Virus record (IMG/VR): IMGVR_UViG_3300021356_000065
Span: 1 to 36,744 of that record
Source of the DNA: a virus
Reading direction: 5' to 3' (one strand)
Length of the DNA stretch: 36,744 nt
The position numbers and the translations under genes were made by a program. The notes under the pieces are model-generated. The model ran no database searches and was not told where the DNA came from. It was given only the letters and a program-made list of their open reading frames with translations. This document shows positions 6,208 to 27,127 of the stretch, in pieces; the first letter of the stretch is position 1, and every line of letters starts with the position of its first letter.

Positions 6208-6459
6208 TTAGCAATTCCAAGCTCTCCTAGACCAATAATTGGCTGACAACTTGTTTGATTTACCTTTGATGCCACCACTACGAGCACAATAACTTTTTTT
6301 GCGAGCAGGTCTATTTTTTTTAATTGTCATATTAGCATCACCGAATCTAACAATTTTTTCTTTGCCACCCTGACATGCTTTTACGACAAACTTTTTACCC
6401 CCTTGAACTTGTCTACGAGGTACATTACATTTCATCTTGTCTTTGTTGAGCTTAGACAT
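6208..6459 (-). CDS. Small basic Cys-containing phage protein, 83 aa
   Basis: The protein is strongly basic with four Cys (MKCNVPRR, VKACQGGKEKIVRFG, KSYCARSGG and the C-terminal WNC). The pattern VKAC.GGKEKI.RFG followed by ARKKSY.ARSGG...K.SANYWSRR..W recalls a widespread uncharacterised family in marine podoviruses and cyanophages. Function is unknown. A good Shine-Dalgarno (AAGGAAG) lies about 5 bases before ATG, inside the preceding 35-residue gene. It is one of several basic mini-proteins here that might bind DNA or another virion component. Confidence 0.8.
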   Translation of the reverse strand: MSKLNKDKMKCNVPRRQVQGGKKFVVKACQGGKEKIVRFGDANMTIKKNRPARKKSYCARSGGIKGKSNKLSANYWSRRAWNC

Positions 6460-6461
6460 AA

Positions 6462-6569
6462 TTACTTCCTTTTTCTTAAAGCCTTAAAATCAGCTTCTGT
6501 GATTTTGTTTCTAGGTGGGGCTATCCTAGCTAACTTCCTTTGTTTGGCACTATATTTTCCGGGAGGCAT
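6462..6569 (-). CDS. Basic mini-protein, 35 aa
   Basis: ATG at 6569 is preceded by AAGAAGGT about 4 bases upstream. The product begins MPPGKYSAKQRKLARIAPP and ends ALRKRK, with one third basic residues and a central APPRNKIT segment. Short proteins with SAKQRKLA...APPR.KIT are known to me from other marine phages, always without an assigned function. It sits between two equally small genes with 2-base gaps, and its 3' end supplies the Shine-Dalgarno of the next gene. Confidence 0.65.
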   Translation of the reverse strand: MPPGKYSAKQRKLARIAPPRNKITEADFKALRKRK

Positions 6570-6663: not shown

Positions 6664-6951
6664 TTATTTCCTTTTTATGAATGTTAATGTTAGTAAACAA
6701 AGCCCCATAAATAAACCAATAAATGATGGCTCCGGGACACTATTATAATCTACTGAAAGTCTATAACTAACCTCATCCCAATTGTATTGCTTGCCTTCAT
6801 AAAGCAATCCATCGAACTCACTATATGCCCACTCTGGAAGAGATGGTACATAAAAATAGTTTAGGTTAGTTGTTGTTGATGTAATAGAATCATCCCAATC
6901 ATAGTTTGGTTCTACTACTAATAAAGGTTTTGTTTGGGCTTCGTGGCTCAT
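6664..6951 (-). CDS. Membrane-anchored protein with PEP-CTERM-like tail, 95 aa
   Basis: Residues 72-76 are VPEPS. They are followed by a hydrophobic helix (about 77-92, FIGLFMGLCLLTLTFI) and a basic end KRK (93-95). This is the tripartite layout of PEP-CTERM signals, which host exosortases are known to process. The N-terminal 70 residues are acidic and aromatic (many W, Y, D, E). There is no N-terminal signal peptide, and an in-frame stop two codons upstream rules out an extension. The start overlaps the end of the 54-residue membrane gene by ATGA. The protein may simply be a C-tail-anchored membrane protein, possibly in lysis or host-surface change. Confidence 0.7.
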   Translation of the reverse strand: MSHEAQTKPLLVVEPNYDWDDSITSTTTNLNYFYVPSLPEWAYSEFDGLLYEGKQYNWDEVSYRLSVDYNSVPEPSFIGLFMGLCLLTLTFIKRK

Positions 6952-7112
6952 TTTTTAAATAAAGTTGTAAAAATAGATGTAAATTCTTTAAATATTTTCT
7001 TGATGAAATTGTCTTTAGGCAAAAACATCATGATAATAGATATTATACCAATGTATGCAAATGCCATACCTAGTAAGTTGTCTTTATAGTTTGTTAATAT
7101 ATATTCTATCAT
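6948..7112 (-). CDS. Small single-pass membrane protein, 54 aa
   Basis: The gene is ATG 7112 to TGA 6948. The product begins MIEYILTNYKDN, has a hydrophobic helix at about 13-33 (LLGMAFAYIGIISIIMMFLP) and a basic C-terminal tail ending LFKK. It overlaps the upstream 272-residue gene by ATGA (7109-7112) and the downstream gene by ATGA (6948-6951), so the three are probably translationally coupled. Size, one helix and a charged tail fit a holin-like or accessory membrane protein, but there is no family match I can name. Confidence 0.7.
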   Translation of the reverse strand: MIEYILTNYKDNLLGMAFAYIGIISIIMMFLPKDNFIKKIFKEFTSIFTTLFKK

Positions 7113-7927
7113 GATACAGGTGATACTTGTCTTATACTTGAATGAGGCTTCATATCGTCATTCATTTGTTCAAATGGTGTTTCTATTAAAGGTATAGGCT
7201 TGACATTATCAGATTTTGACTCAGAATCGGATGATGATTTACTTTCTTGAGTTTCTTGCTTATTCTCAGTTTTTTGTTCTTGGCTTGGTTCTTGCTTACC
7301 TTTGTTATCTTTTTCTGAATCGTTATCTTTAGATGAATTTTCTCCTTTTGATTCTTGCCCTTTGTTTTGTGGCTCTTGTGATTTATCAGTTTGTTGTGGC
7401 TGACCGCTTTGAGCGGGAGTTTCGGAGGAAGAACTTTGTGAAGAAGGAGAGGTTTCTTGTGTGGTGTCCGAAGCGTCAACAGGTGGTTGAGAAATCTGTT
7501 GTAGTTCGGAAACCGCAGCGACCTTCTCAGCGATAACAATTTGACCCCAATCATTCAATGACTCAAAGTCCACGAATGAATCTATGAAAGTAGGTACTTC
7601 AAATCTTTCTTCTACTACATCATTTGCTACACTAGCAATAAAAACTTCGGTTTGGTCTATAGCTACACCCGTTTGAGCAACTGCCGCCGTAGACACAGCT
7701 ACACTACCAGCAGTTCCTAGCTCGCTTACTTTTTGTACAACAGGAAGGTCTTTTATTTTCTCAATAAGAGATTTTTTAAGCGTATTACTAGCTTTTTTAG
7801 CCGAAGCAATTGCTTCCTTAGATTGCTCTCTAATTTCGCTAGAGGTTTCATACTCTTTACCATCCAAGACTTCGGACAAAGAATCTCGCAGTTCCCTGAG
7901 TTTATTTTTGGCAGTTTTGTTATCCAT
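7109..7927 (-). CDS. Low-complexity, disordered late protein with hydrophobic segment, 272 aa
   Basis: Residues 1-65 are charged and helical. Residues about 70-95 form an Ala/Val/Thr-rich, mildly hydrophobic stretch (GTAGSVAVSTAAVAQTGVA). Residues 100-145 look folded, and 150-245 are an extreme Ser/Gln/Glu/Lys low-complexity linker. The last 25 residues are more ordinary (PIPLIETPFEQM). A long linker after a possible membrane segment resembles spacer regions of cell-envelope-spanning or virion-anchored proteins, but I recognise no family. It is the first gene of a coupled three-gene set with two membrane proteins. A Lys-rich alternate frame inside 7186-7554 is a shadow. Confidence 0.75.
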   Translation of the reverse strand: MDNKTAKNKLRELRDSLSEVLDGKEYETSSEIREQSKEAIASAKKASNTLKKSLIEKIKDLPVVQKVSELGTAGSVAVSTAAVAQTGVAIDQTEVFIASVANDVVEERFEVPTFIDSFVDFESLNDWGQIVIAEKVAAVSELQQISQPPVDASDTTQETSPSSQSSSSETPAQSGQPQQTDKSQEPQNKGQESKGENSSKDNDSEKDNKGKQEPSQEQKTENKQETQESKSSSDSESKSDNVKPIPLIETPFEQMNDDMKPHSSIRQVSPVS

Positions 7928-7959: not shown

Positions 7960-8067
7960 TTATTTAGATGTCTTTTTTTTACGAGTAGCACTCCAATCGA
8001 TACCATCATAGTTTTCCTCGTATTTCTTTTGGTTGTACCCTTTTTTGGGTTGCATTCCTTTTCCCAT
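7960..8067 (-). CDS. Basic mini-protein, 35 aa
   Basis: ATG 8067 to TAA 7960. The product starts MGKGMQPKKGYNQKKYEEN and ends in RKKKTSK, with the central motif YDGIDWSATRKKK. It has no Shine-Dalgarno site, but the start lies two bases after the stop of the preceding basic protein. The composition matches the other Lys-rich mini-proteins in this block. Function is unknown. Confidence 0.6.
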   Translation of the reverse strand: MGKGMQPKKGYNQKKYEENYDGIDWSATRKKKTSK

Positions 8068-8069
8068 AG

Positions 8070-8312
8070 TTAAGCGTTTTTTACTTTTGCTCTTTTTGTG
8101 TTTGAGACGAATTGTTTTCCTTTTGCTCCTGCAGCTTTTTTCTTGCGAGCTGTAGCCGCTCTTTCAGATTTACTGAGACTCTTGGCTTTAGCCAAGGGAA
8201 GACAGCGGTCGGGGTTTTTTTTGTTTTTTGATGTTCCACAAGCTCCCTTGATACTCCCATCAATACCAATTCTTACCCACTTTTGTTTTCGCCATTTTGC
8301 TAACTCTCCCAT
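8070..8312 (-). CDS. Basic conserved phage protein (CGTSK...PDRCLP...ERAATARKKK), 80 aa
   Basis: I choose ATG 8312 (MGELAKWRKQKWVRIG), which overlaps the preceding TAA as TAATG, over the longer frame from 8351. The protein contains DGSIKGACGTSKNKKNPDRCLPLAKA and then ERAATARKKKAAG, a pattern I know from uncharacterised small proteins of marine phages. Two Cys in CGTSK and DRCLP, with the strong positive charge, suggest nucleic-acid or metal binding. Function is not known. Confidence 0.75.
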   Translation of the reverse strand: MGELAKWRKQKWVRIGIDGSIKGACGTSKNKKNPDRCLPLAKAKSLSKSERAATARKKKAAGAKGKQFVSNTKRAKVKNA

Positions 8313-8461
8313 TACACTTTCTTTCTCTTCCCATAATTTGGGTCTTTGCAATACTTAGATGCGGCCATGTTAGCATAAGCACTAGGATACTTGTCAAAAG
8401 TACGCTTTGCCCAAGCAATTCCTTTAGCACAAATTTTATTAGACTTTTTTCCTTTTGCCAT
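8312..8461 (-). CDS. Basic mini-protein, 49 aa
   Basis: The start at 8461 is supported by AGGAAG about 8 bases upstream, so the longer frame from 8527 is not needed. The product MAKGKKSNKICAKGIAWAK continues RTFDKYPSAYANMAASKYCKDPNYGKRKKV. The pattern of a helix with W-A-K..F..YPSAYAN..ASKYCK.P is shared with small phage proteins known to me from marine phages. It starts inside the 46-residue gene (23-base overlap) and ends in a TAATG junction. Confidence 0.7.
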   Translation of the reverse strand: MAKGKKSNKICAKGIAWAKRTFDKYPSAYANMAASKYCKDPNYGKRKKV

Positions 8462-8579
8462 AATTTTGCTTCCTAACAATTCTTTTTGCTTCTTCTTCAG
8501 CGGCACAAGCAGGGCAACAAGGTTCACCCTTGTCTTTCTTTCCTACTACTACTACTGAAAATAATCTATTGTTGGCCAT
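8439..8579 (-). CDS. Small Cys-motif protein, 46 aa
   Basis: ATG 8579 lies one base after the TAG of the holin-like gene. The product begins MANNRLFSVVVVGKKDKG and carries EPCCPAC (19-25), then an Ala/Glu helix and the end NYGKRKKV. The clustered Cys could bind zinc or iron. No Shine-Dalgarno site is clear, but the gene fills an otherwise empty 119-base gap and carries the next gene's ribosome site. It is reasonably but not surely real. Confidence 0.5.
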   Translation of the reverse strand: MANNRLFSVVVVGKKDKGEPCCPACAAEEEAKRIVRKQNYGKRKKV

Positions 8580-8580
8580 A

Positions 8581-8988
8581 CTATTTACTTACTGCTGCAC
8601 TTCCAAAGTAAAAAGATATAATACTGATAACAGCAGTCTTAATCTCCGGGAGTATGATATATCCATGTAGTGTCTGGTAAGTTGTGCCTGATGCAAAACC
8701 AAACCACTTGCTATACTCGCTTGCTACTGTTACACCTTCTTCGCTATGAGCTAAAATAAATGGTGCAATAATAACACCAAACAATACTGTTAATACAATA
8801 ATTCGTCTAGTCCAAGCACCAAAGGCATCTACCCTTGCCGCTGCGGCATCTGCACTTTCGTCCGATGCTTTTTGTTTCTTTATAAGTCCTTCAGTAATGG
8901 CTGCTTGGTTTTGAACCATAGTGCCAATTAGCTTAAATACGAACCCGGAGAATCCTCCTCCTAACATTGCTAATAATTCTGTAGTCAT
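8581..8988 (-). CDS. Multi-pass membrane protein, holin candidate, 135 aa
   Basis: Hydrophobic segments lie at about 4-25 (weak, Gly-rich), 62-81 (RIIVLTVLFGVIIAPFILA) and 113-132 (IKTAVISIISFYFGSAAV), with a charged, Ala-rich helical linker at 30-60. Its start overlaps the stop of the 54-residue membrane gene by ATGA. Two adjacent small membrane proteins next to fibre genes fit a holin/antiholin pair, but the lysozyme gene is 8 kb away, so the role is inferred. Confidence 0.7.
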   Translation of the reverse strand: MTTELLAMLGGGFSGFVFKLIGTMVQNQAAITEGLIKKQKASDESADAAAARVDAFGAWTRRIIVLTVLFGVIIAPFILAHSEEGVTVASEYSKWFGFASGTTYQTLHGYIILPEIKTAVISIISFYFGSAAVSK

Positions 8989-9149
8989 TTTTTAAGTTCC
9001 TTCCACATTTTGTAAATAGACAATACGGTAAGTGTAATCACCACACCCCTTGATGCTATTTCCATTAGTAAATTAACATATTCCATTGATTCGACTGCTA
9101 TAAAGCCAAATATTCCAACAGATAATCTTTGTAAAGTCTCTTCCATCAT
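8985..9149 (-). CDS. Small membrane protein, 54 aa
   Basis: I favour ATG 9149 (MMEETLQRLSVGIFGF) over 9191, because the latter overlaps the upstream gene by 35 bases. SVGIFGFIAVESMEYVN at about 9-25 and ASRGVVITLTVLSIYKM at about 32-48 form two possible helices before the basic end WKELKK. The stop overlaps the 135-residue membrane gene by ATGA, so they are probably coupled and may act together in lysis. I know no family. Confidence 0.6.
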   Translation of the reverse strand: MMEETLQRLSVGIFGFIAVESMEYVNLLMEIASRGVVITLTVLSIYKMWKELKK

Positions 9150-9156
9150 ATGTATT

Positions 9157-9462
9157 TTACGATAATTGCTTTCTTTTGAATGGACTTCCATCTAACTCTT
9201 TTCTAGAAATTTTTTCAGTATCAAATATACTAGTAAAATCCGGGACACTTGTATCACTACTTGGTGACTTAGTTTTCTTTTTACTCCCCATGGATTTAAT
9301 ATCATCATTTAGTTTTGTACTTGGCTTAGATATATCTATGTTTGCTCTTTCATAAGACAAATCACTATCACTAGCTCTTACTTCAAAGTCTGGTAAGTTA
9401 TAAGTAGGCAAGTTTGAATCATCTCTACTCTTACTTTTTCTTCTATTGTATTTTATACTCAT
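9157..9462 (-). CDS. Hypothetical basic, disordered protein, 101 aa
   Basis: The start has a strong Shine-Dalgarno (GAGGAAG, about 6 bases before ATG 9462). The product is rich in Ser, Lys and Asp, with few hydrophobics and no helix or signal, e.g. KKKTKSPSSDTSVPDFTS in the middle and SPFKRKQLS at the end. It is probably a disordered linker-type or scaffold-associated protein. Not recognised. Confidence 0.65.
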   Translation of the reverse strand: MSIKYNRRKSKSRDDSNLPTYNLPDFEVRASDSDLSYERANIDISKPSTKLNDDIKSMGSKKKTKSPSSDTSVPDFTSIFDTEKISRKELDGSPFKRKQLS

Positions 9463-9720: not shown

Positions 9721-12285
9721 TTATGAAATATTATAATAATTGATTGCATCGTTTTCTATATCAACAATGTCATTTGGTAATCTCTCATTGTGAAAGTAAA
9801 ATTCTTGTGCTTTCATTGTTTGGTATTGTGTAGTACCACTCAATGTATAACCAGCACCCATATCTCTTATGCCAATAGCAGCAGTTATGTTATTTGTACC
9901 ACCAACTGTTTTAGCAGAACCATTTTCTCTTATGCTAAAGTTATCTTCAGATGGACATTGAATTGACAAAACTAATTGAGAGCCAAGTGTAGCACTTACT
10001 GTTGTGTCATAAATTGTGCTACCATTATCTCTAAATTGATATGTTCCACTATATGGAGCAGCAATCCAGTTTTTAGTTGCACCCTCATCACCTAAGAATG
10101 ACCTACTACCAGCAGTATTTTCACCTACAAACATTATTGTGTTAACTGGTCGGGTTAAACTTGTTGGTTCTAAATTAAAATTTAAACTATTAGTAAATGT
10201 AAAATAATTATCTACTCCATCAAAATCAATAGATGGTTTGCCATTTAGCTTTACTATTCCTCCATTTTTAACAATAGATGGTTGCTCTGTAGCAGTTGCT
10301 TGTACAGCATCATTACCATTACCACTTTGGTCGTACCAAGTTTCTACGAAACCATTACGAGCTATGCGAGATACTTTAATGTTACTAATTGTAAATATAG
10401 CATTGTCATCTCCCTCTGACCAAACAATACCACTAGCTGCACTATTTGTAGATGTAAGTTGAAATGAATTAAATCCTTCTGTTACAGTTCCCTCATTGGA
10501 GTAAAGAGTTCCATTAAGGGATGAATCAATGTTTCTTAATCCCACTTTTGGACTAGCAGTAAAAGAACCTTCGTCCAAAGAAGCATTAAAAGAAACAAAT
10601 ATAGAATCACCAATAACCACATCTGAAGCAAACTTTGCCCCAGCATAAGCTGATGCTGTTTGAACATCTAGTGTAAATTGAGTTAAATCAGATGATGTAC
10701 TTGTTCCACCACTTCTTTCATTTAAAAATCTAAAGGCAGTTTCGTCACTTGCGAACTCATTCGCATCATTGTACAAACCATAATAGTTATTGATGTTGGA
10801 CTCAATCTTGAAGCGATTGTCTGATTGGTCTGAAGTGTAAAGAATTACCTCAGACATAGAACCTTGCATAAATATATTGCCAGATATACCACTTCCTAAT
10901 CTAGTCCAAGCATTAGCTGGGTCTCCAGAGCCATATATTATACTAATTAAAGAGTTAGTGTCCGATGGTATATCTCCATAAGTTCCAAGGTTTCCTCCAG
11001 CTGAAGATAATGTCTTTCCGTTTGAAGCATATTGTCCACTATCGCTGGCTGCACCATCTATTGATATTGCATAAGAATTAAATGCTGAGTTGTTATTAGA
11101 TACAAATATATAGCTATTCGTTCCAGCTGTTCCAAGTAATGAACTAATACCATCTTGACCATATCCATTTAGACCTCCAGCAGTTGTATCTATGTTTTGA
11201 TTAGTTACTGCAAATATAGACCTACCAGATACACCATTAGTTATAGTAAAGTTATCACTATTTCCGTTGAACTTTAAGCCATCAGCAAGCAATGCTCCAT
11301 TCTCTGCAATCTTTGGTTGGCTTCCATAAGTATTTTGAGTTGCATTGTTTGACCCAGCTTGGTCGTACCAAGTTTGGACAAATGCTTGGTGATTATGAGA
11401 TACTATTTCAAAGTCGCTAATTGTGTACGAACCAGTATTAGCATCAGCAAACATAAGGTGATTTCCATCTGCTGATGCAGTTAAAGTATCTGTATATGTT
11501 CCATTAGCAGTAAATGTAGTACCGACAGATGCTACACTAGTTACATTATTAGTGTTTGTTACCCCTCTAATCTGCGGACTTAAACTGGATGTGCTACTAA
11601 AATTACTTACTGTATACCTTACTACAATTACATCATTAGTGGCAAAACTATAAGGGAATCCAGCTGAACCAACTCCTCCAGAACTATTGTCAGCAGAAAA
11701 ACCAGTTGTGGTTGCATTAGTTACAGTATAATTATCAAAAGAACCAGTACCATTTACCGCTGTACCTACTGTTAGTTTTTCATTTAAAAATCCATTAAGG
11801 TCAGTAGCACTTGTACTTCCACTTACTAAGGATATAGATGAGCTTGAACTTACCTTATCATCTGAATCAAAAGCTACATTAACTTCAGTGTTATCTGAGT
11901 CTCTACGAATACGAACTGCATTGCCACTATAACTAGCTTTTACTTTACGAAGACTGTAAGCAGCTGCGGCTGTTGCTACATCTGCTGGTAGCGTACTCTC
12001 TAGTTTACCATTTACCCAATCTTCTAATGCACCGCTTTGGACTTGATTAGCTGAGAAGTCTTCTTCTGGGTCTGAACCTTGTCCATCTACATCTCTACGA
12101 ACTTTAACAACTCTGCCGTTCATTGCACCAATGTCTCGCAATGAGTACGCAGCTGATGCACCACCGAATCTACGAGCTATTCCTAAGTCTGTATAGTTAG
12201 CATTGGCACCTGATAATATATTCCAAGCAGCACCAAGCTCTCCCTTCAACTCTGTTTCGGCAGATGCTAGATGTTCTGAAGACAT
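9721..12285 (-). CDS. Large tail-fibre/receptor-binding protein with repeated lectin-like modules, 854 aa
   Basis: Two modules near the N-terminus, AAYSLRDIG...VVKVRRDVDG (about 47-75) and AAYSLRKVK...AVRIRRDSDN (about 108-133), are followed by two modules with FVQTWYDQAGSNNATQ (about 298-314) and FVETWYDQSGNGNDAVQ (about 640-660). The patterns AYSLR..Y.G.AVR.RR..D, TWYDQSGNGN.A.Q and FDGVDNYF are those of an arabinofuranosidase-like or concanavalin-like fold common in marine phage tail proteins. I infer host glycan binding. Catalytic residues cannot be judged. The 17-base string TTGGTCGTACCAAGTTT recurs at both WYDQ modules in DNA. Confidence 0.75.
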   Translation of the reverse strand: MSSEHLASAETELKGELGAAWNILSGANANYTDLGIARRFGGASAAYSLRDIGAMNGRVVKVRRDVDGQGSDPEEDFSANQVQSGALEDWVNGKLESTLPADVATAAAAYSLRKVKASYSGNAVRIRRDSDNTEVNVAFDSDDKVSSSSSISLVSGSTSATDLNGFLNEKLTVGTAVNGTGSFDNYTVTNATTTGFSADNSSGGVGSAGFPYSFATNDVIVVRYTVSNFSSTSSLSPQIRGVTNTNNVTSVASVGTTFTANGTYTDTLTASADGNHLMFADANTGSYTISDFEIVSHNHQAFVQTWYDQAGSNNATQNTYGSQPKIAENGALLADGLKFNGNSDNFTITNGVSGRSIFAVTNQNIDTTAGGLNGYGQDGISSLLGTAGTNSYIFVSNNNSAFNSYAISIDGAASDSGQYASNGKTLSSAGGNLGTYGDIPSDTNSLISIIYGSGDPANAWTRLGSGISGNIFMQGSMSEVILYTSDQSDNRFKIESNINNYYGLYNDANEFASDETAFRFLNERSGGTSTSSDLTQFTLDVQTASAYAGAKFASDVVIGDSIFVSFNASLDEGSFTASPKVGLRNIDSSLNGTLYSNEGTVTEGFNSFQLTSTNSAASGIVWSEGDDNAIFTISNIKVSRIARNGFVETWYDQSGNGNDAVQATATEQPSIVKNGGIVKLNGKPSIDFDGVDNYFTFTNSLNFNLEPTSLTRPVNTIMFVGENTAGSRSFLGDEGATKNWIAAPYSGTYQFRDNGSTIYDTTVSATLGSQLVLSIQCPSEDNFSIRENGSAKTVGGTNNITAAIGIRDMGAGYTLSGTTQYQTMKAQEFYFHNERLPNDIVDIENDAINYYNIS

Positions 12286-16919: not shown

Positions 16920-17666
16920 TTATTCTGATGGTGTGTTTTTTAATTGTTCGGCATAATCCTTTAGTGCATTAGCCATATTTTCCATTCTCGTTTTAACGCC
17001 GCCTTTTTCAGTCTTAATGCCTAATTTCTTAGCTCTTTTGACTTCCTCGACTACATCAAAGTACTCATCATTTTTTAAAAACTCTTTGGATGCCTCCTCA
17101 AACTTACCTTCATTCATAAGTCCGATTGTTTTAGGGCTACCACTTAGTCCACCCCTAAACCAAGAACCAACAATGTTATCTCTTAGGTATTTAGGCATAC
17201 TATCAAAACCCTTAATGTTCTTTTCAATAACAGGAAGCCTTTTAGCAATATTTTCAAGCAACTTTGGTTCTGCTTCTTCTTCGGTAATAGTATCGCCTTC
17301 TTTGATATGTTCACCATAATCACCATGACCAAGTGTCAAGTATTCCTCAAACTCATACTTACCTGTTCTAGGATTGTATTTCTTGAGCCTTGTTGCTTTG
17401 CCATGAAAACCTTCTAGGGGCTTTACGACATCTACATATTCCTTGGGGTCTAGTGCAATACTTGTATTTACCTCATACATTCTCTTGTCACCATCTTCTG
17501 GGATATTACTAATTTTTTCTTGCATACCTAGCATGTAACTTTCCATCTCCGGGGAAAGTTTAGACTCTTGGTATTTTGGTTGTGAGCCAATCATAGGCAA
17601 ATCACCACTAGTCTCTTGTTTGGGATTTAAGCCTAACAAGGAACTAAATACATCTGAAAACTTCAT
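16920..17666 (-). CDS. Lysozyme-domain (GH24-like) protein, 248 aa
   Basis: The start is ATG 17666 (MKFSDVFSSLLG), with AAGGAAG about 8 bases upstream and one base after the portal stop. The longer frame from 17915 overlaps the portal gene. Residues about 76-200 resemble T4-type lysozymes: VKPLEGFHGKATRLKKY with candidate catalytic E85, LTLGHGDYGEHIKEGDTIT (111-128) in place of the GIGH core, LRDNIVGSW and LSGSPKTIGLMN matching the C-terminal lobe. The N-terminal 75 residues are extra, with no secretion signal. It may be a virion-carried muralytic enzyme or the endolysin. Confidence 0.75.
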   Translation of the reverse strand: MKFSDVFSSLLGLNPKQETSGDLPMIGSQPKYQESKLSPEMESYMLGMQEKISNIPEDGDKRMYEVNTSIALDPKEYVDVVKPLEGFHGKATRLKKYNPRTGKYEFEEYLTLGHGDYGEHIKEGDTITEEEAEPKLLENIAKRLPVIEKNIKGFDSMPKYLRDNIVGSWFRGGLSGSPKTIGLMNEGKFEEASKEFLKNDEYFDVVEEVKRAKKLGIKTEKGGVKTRMENMANALKDYAEQLKNTPSE

Positions 17667-17667
17667 A

Positions 17668-19767
17668 CTAGTAACTTCCTTGCTCCATAGATTGTGTTTG
17701 AACTCCACCCATTTGTGCTGGGTTTGTTCCAATCTTTCCGATTTGTGCATTTCTTGCTTGTTGTATTTGGAATGTGTATTGTCCCATATACTTTTCGAGT
17801 CTTCCTGCAAAGGATTCATCGGTTTGCAAACGCTCAGAAACATCAGGCTGAGAAGCATACTGTTGTATAGTTTGTATCGCAATTTGTGCACCATTAGGTC
17901 TAGCTGGCATTTCAATACCTGCGAATATCTTCGCTAGGTCATCAGTAACTTGTTTTACAATTTGTTCTGAAGCTACTTGTTGTGGTTGTAATACACTATC
18001 AGCTAATACAGGGTCAATACTAAATGCCGCCAAATCAAGCAAAGCATTAATGTTAATACGGCCACTTCTATCAAGTTGAGTTAATGCTACCATTTGTTGT
18101 AGCTTTTTCTCTTGAACTTCTGGGTCTGTATTTAGTACATCGTAGTTAATTACAATATCAAAGTTTTCATCTGGGTTGCCTTTTGTAAATACACCAGCAT
18201 CAGGTGAACCTGTTACCCTAAAGAATATTTCGTCTGGGCCAAATCGTTGAAAACATTTGTAGCACATTTTTAGTACATCAGCACAATGTGTTAAAAATTT
18301 ATCAGTTAAGAATTGTTTTCTTATTTGAGATATTTGACTAGTTTCATCAAGGCCACATAATCTATCGGCTTGAGCTTCCATAGTTTTTTCCATCTCAATA
18401 GAACCCACAGGACTTGGTGGTGTAGGAGCAAAATCTAAGTCACCTTTTCTACGATAAGGTATCATTCTTCCCGGCCCCCAATCTGTTGGTGCTTGTCCAA
18501 CTGGGTGCATGATAGGAGGCAATGTAGCTAGTGAGTTTCTATCTATTCTAGAATCACGCTCTACTTTTACTTGATTTTGTATACCTCTAAGAATATCAGG
18601 TATTGTTTGAGTATCGTACAAACGCTTACTATCTTCGGATAGTTTTGTAACTACTACAGGATAATCTTCGTATCCATTAAGTAGCTCAAACTTAGCATAG
18701 CCATTTGCTACATCATTACCATCAAATTCTCTATGGAATACCGTACAATAAATGCCTTCTGAACCATCGGCCTTATCGATTAATCTTTGGTATCCATAGA
18801 CTATTTCAACCAACTCATCGGCTGTATTCGTGACATCATAATCAAAATGACTTCTTCGATTTGTAGCATCTCTTTCTATAGAGTCTACATTAACACCACG
18901 AAAATGTTCTATAACATAATCAACAAAGTCTTCATCCCAACCATCGGTTACTACTTTGTTTTGTAACTCTTGTGGTGTGTAGAATGTTCGCCAAAAGCAA
19001 TATGGTGCTCTTTGTGGGTCTGTGACATAACTAGGGAACAAGAAATCACCATCAGGTGCAAGTGTTTTTACATCAGGTGCATTTACTTGCCTACGAACTA
19101 TAGGTAATTCCGCTGTACCACCTTTTCTTAGTTCTTTGATTGCTTTCTTAGCTCTTTTGTTAATAACTCCCGGAAATGTGGATTCTAGTAATACAGCTAG
19201 TTCATCATCGTTTCCTCCTTCAATAATAGCTTCGGCCACCTCTTGTGACATTTGTGCTATTTGATTTAAATCTAATTTTTGTAGATAACTTCTATCTTCT
19301 CTTTGCCAACCAACATAAGTAACTAAAATACCTCTTTCTAATAAGTAGTTAGCACCTAGTTCCATTTCTTTCTTGAATCTTGGAATATAACCAGATGTTG
19401 ACATCCACTTCAAGAAATCGGAAACCATAGTAGCTCTAGGCAAATCATTTACTTCAACTGGGAATGCTTTTACATTAGCTCTACTTAGAGATGACATAAA
19501 CAAAGAAACTAATCTTGTTATACGCTCATCGATAGTATGGGCTTCCATATCGGCAGCACCTTCCCATGGAAAAGCATTAGCTCCATGCTTCCTATGGTCA
19601 CGAGTTTTACCCGCCCACCAATTTCGCCTATCATCGTAACTATTTCTACATAAATCAAAGTAACTCTCTAATTCAGTTGTAGTTTGGTCGAAGGCCGTTC
19701 TTAAAGTTGTAACACTTGGCTCTTTGCCAACATAGGTAAGAGCTTTTGAGGTTTTTTCGTTATCCAT
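17668..19767 (-). CDS. Portal protein, 699 aa
   Basis: Near residues 45-75, DRRNWWAGKTRDHRKHGANAFPWEGAAD is the characteristic start of podovirus portals, followed by a helical and beta wing region and PIMHPVG/GPGRMIPYRRKGDLDF (about 440-470). The C-terminus is Gln/Pro/Ala-rich and disordered. About 700 residues is typical. It sits between terminase and lysozyme/scaffold genes as expected. ATG 19767 has an A/T-rich leader and no Shine-Dalgarno site. Confidence 0.85.
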   Translation of the reverse strand: MDNEKTSKALTYVGKEPSVTTLRTAFDQTTTELESYFDLCRNSYDDRRNWWAGKTRDHRKHGANAFPWEGAADMEAHTIDERITRLVSLFMSSLSRANVKAFPVEVNDLPRATMVSDFLKWMSTSGYIPRFKKEMELGANYLLERGILVTYVGWQREDRSYLQKLDLNQIAQMSQEVAEAIIEGGNDDELAVLLESTFPGVINKRAKKAIKELRKGGTAELPIVRRQVNAPDVKTLAPDGDFLFPSYVTDPQRAPYCFWRTFYTPQELQNKVVTDGWDEDFVDYVIEHFRGVNVDSIERDATNRRSHFDYDVTNTADELVEIVYGYQRLIDKADGSEGIYCTVFHREFDGNDVANGYAKFELLNGYEDYPVVVTKLSEDSKRLYDTQTIPDILRGIQNQVKVERDSRIDRNSLATLPPIMHPVGQAPTDWGPGRMIPYRRKGDLDFAPTPPSPVGSIEMEKTMEAQADRLCGLDETSQISQIRKQFLTDKFLTHCADVLKMCYKCFQRFGPDEIFFRVTGSPDAGVFTKGNPDENFDIVINYDVLNTDPEVQEKKLQQMVALTQLDRSGRININALLDLAAFSIDPVLADSVLQPQQVASEQIVKQVTDDLAKIFAGIEMPARPNGAQIAIQTIQQYASQPDVSERLQTDESFAGRLEKYMGQYTFQIQQARNAQIGKIGTNPAQMGGVQTQSMEQGSY

Positions 19768-26245: not shown

Positions 26246-27127
26246 ATGAACAAAAAACTTAATAATGTACTATCCCTATTCGATGGAATGTCATGTGGCC
26301 AGCTGGCCCTCAAAAGAGCAAACATCGACTACGAAAATTACTATGCTAGTGAAATCAAGCCAATTGCTATAAAAGTAACAAAAGCTAATTTCCCTAATAC
26401 AATCCATGTTGGAGATGTCACAAAGCTAAATGCTAGTGATTTTCCAAAGATTGATTTACTTATAGGTGGCAGCCCTTGCCAAGATTTTAGTATTCTAAAT
26501 AAAGATAGAAAAGGCCTTGAAGGTTCTCGCAGTTCTTTGTTTTACGAATACCTAAGATTGCTAAAAGAACTAAAGCCTAAATATTTCTTACTTGAAAATG
26601 TAAGAATGAAAAAATCATGTGAAGAAGAATTAAATGAATATCTTGGAGTCAAAGGTATTCACATTAATTCTAATCTAGTTTCATATCAAAATAGATATCG
26701 AATCTATTGGACTAATATTCCTAATGTAGCTGCACCTATTGATAGAAATGTAAACTTTCAAGATTTCAAAGAAAGGAATCATGAGATAGCTAAAACCTAT
26801 AAACTTAATCCAACACCTTCAAGAATTAAAATGTGGAGCAATGGAGAAGGTAACAAGGCGAACTCAATAAAAGCATGTAACAATATCACTAATGCAGCAA
26901 AAATTGGTTGCATCACAAGAAAACAAGATAGAAGCCCAAATAGTGGCCTAATAGAATGTGAAGATTTTTGTAGATATTTAACAAGGGAAGAATTAGAGAA
27001 AGGTCAAACAGTTCCTATTGGATACACCTCAAGTGTCTCATATAACCAAGCTCAAGATTTATTAGGTGATGGTTGGACTGTTGAGGTGATTGCACATATA
27101 TTTAATTATATTAACCAAGATAGTTAA
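26246..27127 (+). CDS. DNA (cytosine-5) methyltransferase, 293 aa
   Basis: Transfers a methyl group from S-adenosylmethionine to cytosine C5. All main motifs are present in order: LSLFDGMSCGQLAL (I, 9-22), GGSPCQDFS (IV, 74-82, catalytic Cys78), ENV (VI, 117-119), QNRYRIYW (VIII, 148-155), RYLTREELEKGQ (IX-like, 243-254) and DLLGDGWTVEVIAHIF (X, 271-286). IGGSPCQDFSIL...RKGLEG resembles the Dnmt3-like branch seen in some phages. The target region (160-240) is short. No partner restriction enzyme is seen, so protection of phage DNA from host restriction is the likely role. The promoter's AGCTAA boxes include possible AGCT sites. Confidence 0.9.
   Translation: MNKKLNNVLSLFDGMSCGQLALKRANIDYENYYASEIKPIAIKVTKANFPNTIHVGDVTKLNASDFPKIDLLIGGSPCQDFSILNKDRKGLEGSRSSLFYEYLRLLKELKPKYFLLENVRMKKSCEEELNEYLGVKGIHINSNLVSYQNRYRIYWTNIPNVAAPIDRNVNFQDFKERNHEIAKTYKLNPTPSRIKMWSNGEGNKANSIKACNNITNAAKIGCITRKQDRSPNSGLIECEDFCRYLTREELEKGQTVPIGYTSSVSYNQAQDLLGDGWTVEVIAHIFNYINQDS

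Follow-up and report, generated by a model that had tools for sequence, protein, structure and literature searches.

A PEP-CTERM-like tail on a late phage membrane protein is conserved among relatives and retained when the ectodomain is exchanged

The virus analysed here is a marine virus of bacteria, and the third gene (g3) within a conserved set of its late membrane genes encodes a small protein with the C-terminal layout of a bacterial PEP-CTERM protein. We propose, at a probability of roughly 0.45, that g3 ends in a host-type PEP-CTERM tail and works outside the cytoplasm, on the envelope, late in infection and probably through the host exosortase. The tail may itself be a true sorting signal of the PEP-CTERM type, which we hold at the same slightly less than even odds. 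With considerably greater confidence, g3 can be regarded as a protein that is anchored outside the cytoplasm and belongs to a lysis-linked gene cassette, whether or not it is processed. The conservation of such a tag while the rest of the protein is swapped suggests that protein sorting by the host is put to use by the virus. Our literature search found no paper describing a phage-encoded PEP-CTERM signal, in agreement with the initial annotation, which named no described phage use of this system.

Results

Tail architecture of g3 and its conservation

The window, i.e. the whole stretch of 36,744 nucleotides analysed here, is derived from an IMG/VR virus record and encodes g3 on the minus strand (6664–6951). 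The product of 95 residues (MSHEAQTK...VDYNSVPEPSFIGLFMGLCLLTLTFIKRK) consists of an acidic ectodomain containing no Cys (residues 1–71; 6739–6951), a VPEP motif (residues 72–75; 6727–6738), a hydrophobic helix (residues 77–92 by hydropathy, predicted helix 77–94; 6676–6723), and the basic end KRK (residues 93–95; 6667–6675), so that VPEPS, helix, and KRK follow one another at the C-terminus. The tripartite tail that the initial annotation had described in this reading frame is therefore real. Its remark that the protein has no N-terminal signal peptide also stands, since the MSHE start is not hydrophobic. An AF2 model of g3 (pLDDT 68.7) displayed a helix-hairpin-helix at residues 40–66, and Foldseek and PDB searches for structural homologues of g3 and of the product of gene 1 (g1) gave no significant match.

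Relatives of g3 are encoded at 56 viral loci, and the 57 distinct proteins gathered from all loci, which share the MSHE start, are referred to as family A. PE is invariant in family A, and the complete PEP is found in 51 of the 57 proteins; the third proline is missing in the other six, which have serine (4), alanine (1), or glutamine (1) at this position. PEP is conserved in related phages, so the lack of conservation that the initial annotation had named as grounds for refutation was not found, and the motif holds while the helix residues diverge. The charge following the helix is always positive (+1 to +8), and five members have tails extended 24–34 residues beyond the helix. The family A ectodomain has a net charge of −8 to −17, 0% Cys, 3.7% Lys plus Arg, and 8.9% Ser; neither Thr (4.2%) nor Asn (4.7%) is clearly elevated. 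According to Haft et al., the ectodomains of PEP-CTERM proteins contain few basic residues, very little Cys, and elevated Ser, Thr, and Asn, and approximately 97% of PEP-CTERM proteins carry an N-terminal signal peptide (PMC1569441). Family A, with its MSHE start, lacks the latter feature. An overlooked upstream signal peptide was rejected, as an in-frame stop codon often lies directly before MSHE. The strongly acidic N-terminal domain and the basic C-terminal end suggest that family A proteins may cross the membrane without a signal peptide. The same charge pattern contradicts the opposite topology, a tail anchor with the N-terminus inside and the C-terminus outside.

Profile scores and comparison with chance

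Scoring of the tail against TIGR02595 (curated cut-off 16 bits), which the initial annotation had proposed, gave 16.7 bits at 6667–6738 (residues 72–95) in a six-frame search of the window and 14.8 bits with g3 alone as the protein, which puts the window protein at the edge of the cut-off. PF07589 gave 15.3 bits (cut-off 20.7); this sub-cut-off score says little here, because PF07589 misses the entire Verrucomicrobium spinosum set (Haft et al., PMC1569441). The best TIGR02595 score among the relatives was 22.7 bits (VPEPSTYALLAGFAVLIFTMIKRRNK in L079), and scores below 16 were obtained for other relatives. Besides the window, 3 of 14 and 7 of 24 relative phage records (10 of 38) exceeded the cut-off. 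Each matching record among the 38 contained exactly one match (E ≤ 1), which was gene 3 wherever it could be mapped.

An independent HMM was built from 27 genuine bacterial tails from Pseudomonadota genomes. Among 5,439 non-redundant phage ORFs, the 28 gene-3 proteins occupied the top ranks with 7.3–17.8 bits (13.8 bits for the window), and the best ORF other than gene 3 reached 6.8 bits. We also compared g3 with 108 other phage ORFs possessing a C-terminal helix and a basic end, a set from which three gene-3 variants missed by the filter had been taken out. PE was found just before the helix in two of the 108, and PEP in none. A chance motif was rejected on the basis of the HMM ranking, the single match per record, and the comparison with the 108 anchors. 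The scores of the g3 family (7–23 bits) are nevertheless well under those of the strongest genuine tails (26–35 bits, matches at E ≤ 1e-4). When the family alignment was searched against 84,980 genomes, the sole genome match was a Sphingomonad PEP-CTERM protein, with which the sequence VDYNSVPEPA is shared. Since g3 has the motif, the helix, the basic end, and most compositional features of PEP-CTERM proteins but not the usual signal peptide, we do not class it among the proven members; it resembles a PEP-CTERM protein and is probably recognized as one.

Exchange of the ectodomain on a constant tail

In other phages, the g3 position is occupied by an unrelated protein of approximately 200 residues (family B; 12 distinct proteins), the N-terminus of which is a signal-peptide-like stretch (MKILIPLLFISTALIANVFLNS). 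The tail motif of family B is PEM in eight, PES in two, and PEP in two of the 12 proteins. A start codon overlapping the preceding gene 2 (g2) is common to both families: ATGA in family A and GTGA, with a GTG start, in L205.

A comparison of L205 with L207 showed 94–95% identity throughout g1 and g2 and 94% identity again from within the tail. The stretch that follows g2 and precedes the tail, in contrast, encodes unrelated ectodomains (approximately 535 and 223 nt, respectively). Likewise, the last 45 nt of the tail DNA are identical between L187 (family B) and L004 (family A), and the similarity drops to the background level just upstream of PE. Because its DNA hardly changes when the ectodomain is swapped, the tail is a unit kept in its own right; the tail is the constant part, and the ectodomain is the variable part. 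L205/L187 compared with L207/L186 represent a clean domain-level cassette exchange between near-identical phages, the boundaries of which fall where g2 ends and within the tail.

The signal-peptide-like start suggests that the family B ectodomain faces outward, and since family B would be exported, the family A ectodomain probably faces outward as well. The presence of PEP in just two of the 12 family B proteins suggests that the full PEP is dispensable for the function shared by the two families. No homology was detected between the family B ectodomain and 32 genuine PEP-CTERM frames, NCBIfam, or PDB; its likeness to PEP-CTERM ectodomains is an impression by eye.

The three-gene cassette and its neighbourhood

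Three successive genes on the minus strand, g1 (7109–7927, 272 residues), g2 (6948–7112, 54 residues), and g3, overlap one another by ATGA, and almost all relatives retain the coupling of g2 to g3. This cassette, its holin-like neighbours, and the swappable ectodomains go beyond what the initial annotation had described. The g2 product (50–56 residues in the family) has a single span and, in the window, an amphipathic basic C-terminus. The g1 product (250–300 residues in the family) is composed of N-terminal helices, a weakly hydrophobic segment, a linker of more than 100 residues rich in Ser, Glu, Gln, Lys, and Pro, and a conserved C-terminus; it belongs to no known family, and its AF2 model is poor (pLDDT 50.1), with the linker disordered. 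The weakly hydrophobic segment (LGTAGSVAVSTAAVAQ) and a C-terminal peptide (ETPFE..DDIKPHS..RQVSPVS) are conserved in g1. A frameshift fusion of g2 and g3 was rejected; the overlap is always a stop/start, and there is no conserved slippery heptamer. In L162, two more small membrane proteins (94 and 93–96 residues) are encoded between g2 and g3 (952–1517), and their counterparts in L166 are sited away from g2, which represents local gene shuffling.

The cassette is found in at least three podovirus backbones. It precedes a head-closure-like/tail gene in the window-type backbone and the gene for tail tubular protein A in the T7-like backbone, and in the third backbone the scaffold and capsid genes come after it. 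In 40 of 59 distinct relatives, no more than 70 nt separate g1 from an upstream gene for a holin-like protein, so called by layout only (135 residues, approximately three hydrophobic segments; phrog_38283). The distance in the window is approximately 650 nt; here the holin-like gene (8581–8988, minus strand) is next to a gene for a small single-span partner protein (8985–9191, minus strand). The likely endolysin is encoded farther away (16920–17915, minus strand); it contains a phage lysozyme domain at approximately residues 190–281 (PF00959, 22.8 bits, cut-off 22.3; phrog_7 endolysin), and the true start of this ORF is probably further in.

Relatives and probable host

The TerL, portal, and capsid proteins of the window exhibit 65–75% identity to those of 'Phage C75C1', whose record names no host and on which our literature search found nothing. 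Among 50,697 phage records, the holin-like protein matched three, namely two records of verrucophage P8625 and C75C1. The identity to the P8625 protein is 44% (E 5e-24) for the window and up to 63% for the cassette phages. Further matches of the cassette phages to P8625 are in the small partner gene upstream of the holin-like gene, in a dNMP kinase, and, at a weak level, in a tail fibre. P8625 is the sole host-assigned phage among these matches; its host, Puniceicoccales sp. IMCC8625, is a marine relative of Coraliomargarita (PMC4642752). The homology to P8625 points to a verrucomicrobial host, which we consider somewhat better than an even bet. We go no higher because the G+C content of the window (31–38%) differs from that of P8625 (51%; PMC4642752). 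A search by TerL found nothing in 398 Pseudomonadota genomes and is uninformative about the host.

Verrucomicrobium spinosum is the verrucomicrobium in which PEP-CTERM was first found (PMC1569441), and both EpsH and 21 PEP-CTERM proteins are present in Akkermansia (PMC3048395). The cassette g1–g3 is absent from P8625 and C75C1, and P8625 contains no PEP-CTERM match. A phage-encoded exosortase was also considered and rejected, as none is encoded in 22 phage records. The L068 MAG contains at least 13 PEP-CTERM matches, yet PF09721 finds no exosortase in it; an empty PF09721 result in a draft genome therefore proves little.

Discussion

Proposed mechanism and alternative explanations

The start of g3 is coupled to g2, and the operon g1–g2–g3 sits behind a holin-like gene, from which late synthesis and action at the envelope would follow. 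The protein would be inserted with its N-terminal domain outside the cytoplasmic membrane and its C-terminus inside, and would first be held by the tail, i.e. PE(P), the helix, and the basic cytoplasmic end. The tail would imitate surface proteins of the host, which is probably a verrucomicrobium, or would have been taken from them. The host exosortase would then most likely recognize PE(P), cut at PEP, and transfer the ectodomain to the outer envelope. Once there, the ectodomain may assist release by opening or clearing the envelope, or it may alter the cell surface. The wider proposal, that a lytic phage lineage exploits the host exosortase by presenting exchangeable ectodomains on a constant tail, so that the host sorts phage proteins to its outer envelope in a late step of lysis or surface remodelling, is more tentative.

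The main rival explanation is a plain membrane anchor, in which PE is simply the point where the ectodomain meets the membrane surface, exosortase plays no part, and the likeness to PEP-CTERM arises from generic features (proline, an acidic residue, a helix, and Lys/Arg). We regard this as a real possibility that falls somewhat short of even odds. The predominance of PEM and PES in family B, the tails extended past the helix, the start of family A without a signal peptide, and the low TIGR02595 scores are all consistent with it. A plain anchor does not readily explain, however, why PE is present in all members of two unrelated ectodomain families but in only two of 108 other phage C-terminal anchors (PEP in none), why the HMM of genuine tails picks the g3 family alone, or why PEP is kept in 51 of 57 proteins despite divergence of the helix residues. 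A spanin-like lysis apparatus, in which g1 with its long linker, g2, and g3 with its tail would act jointly in the last step of lysis, is compatible with either sorting by exosortase or a plain anchor rather than exclusive of them, and appears less likely than not. The late region, the holin-like gene adjoining the cassette in 40 of 59 relatives, the N-terminal helices and disordered linker of g1, and the family B layout, with a signal at the N-terminus and a span at the C-terminus as in unimolecular spanins, argue for this role. Against it, g3 has no lipobox Cys (the family A ectodomain contains no Cys at all), no spanin match was found in Pfam or PHROG, and the AF2 model of g1 is poor.

Two other roles for the cassette were weighed. 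The clean replacement of ectodomains between near-identical phages is what would be expected of a diversifying specificity part, and swappable ectodomains on the infected cell might block other phages or host receptors, an idea already raised in the initial annotation. Such superinfection exclusion or surface change is quite improbable, however, as a site beside late virion and lysis genes is ill-suited to an early exclusion function. We give still less credence to a virion-associated or ejected membrane protein: the position of the cassette between capsid and tail genes, where the next gene is head-closure-like/tail in the window and encodes tail tubular protein A in the T7-like phages, would fit this explanation, whereas the holin-like neighbour, the signal peptide in family B, and the absence of the cassette from the relative C75C1 do not.

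Comparison with known systems and significance

Unimolecular spanins of phages are late, lysis-linked proteins with an N-terminal signal, an outward domain, and a C-terminal span. g3 resembles them in being late and lysis-linked and in its outward domain and C-terminal span, but has no lipobox Cys, outer-membrane anchor, or spanin family match. With substrates of the PEP-CTERM/exosortase (EpsH) system (TIGR02595/PF07589), g3 shares PE(P), the helix, the basic C-terminal end, and a low content of Cys and basic residues in the ectodomain; several relatives exceed the curated score, and the probable host of the window phage belongs to a phylum having the system. Unlike them, g3 is phage-encoded, lies in a lysis-linked operon, and occurs once per genome; in addition, family A lacks a signal peptide, the third proline can be lost, and some tails are extended. 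The MYXO-CTERM/myxosortase, PGF-CTERM/archaeosortase, and LPXTG/sortase systems have tripartite C-terminal sorting signals of the same layout (PMC11980579), whereas the g3 motif has no invariant Cys, PGF, or LPXTG. The holin-like pair of P8625 (P8625_27/28) is homologous to the small single-span and three-span genes of the cassette phages; P8625 differs in having neither g1–g3 nor a PEP-CTERM match.

If the tail works as a sorting signal, a bacterial system for surface sorting is exploited by phages. Neither the substrates nor the enzyme of this system are easy to assay, and g3 would be a compact natural exosortase substrate, with variants (PEP, PES, PEA, PEQ, and PEM) for testing recognition. 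If the tail is an anchor only, the analysis nonetheless delineates a late membrane cassette of three genes, with ectodomains that can be swapped, in several podovirus lineages. This cassette probably has a link to lysis in Verrucomicrobiota, and we found one isolated lytic phage for that phylum.

Other genes of the window

Very small proteins rich in Lys and Arg (e.g., KICKKGIAWARRTFDKYPSAYANMAASKYCKDPNYA...KKKK and MGELKKWREQNWVRIG...) are encoded on the minus strand around the cassette (6208–6459, 6462–6569, 7960–8067, 8070–8351, and 8312–8527). Their order and number vary between phages, and they are possibly DNA-binding or packaging proteins. A protein of 854 residues with repeated lectin-like segments (of the VETWYDQSGNGNDA... 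type) is encoded among the structural genes (9721–12285, minus strand) and is possibly a glycan-binding decoration or fibre. The early region contains a gene for a probable cytosine-5 DNA methyltransferase, a reading made from its sequence (26246–27127, plus strand), and the annotation of C75C1 likewise includes a DNA methyltransferase.
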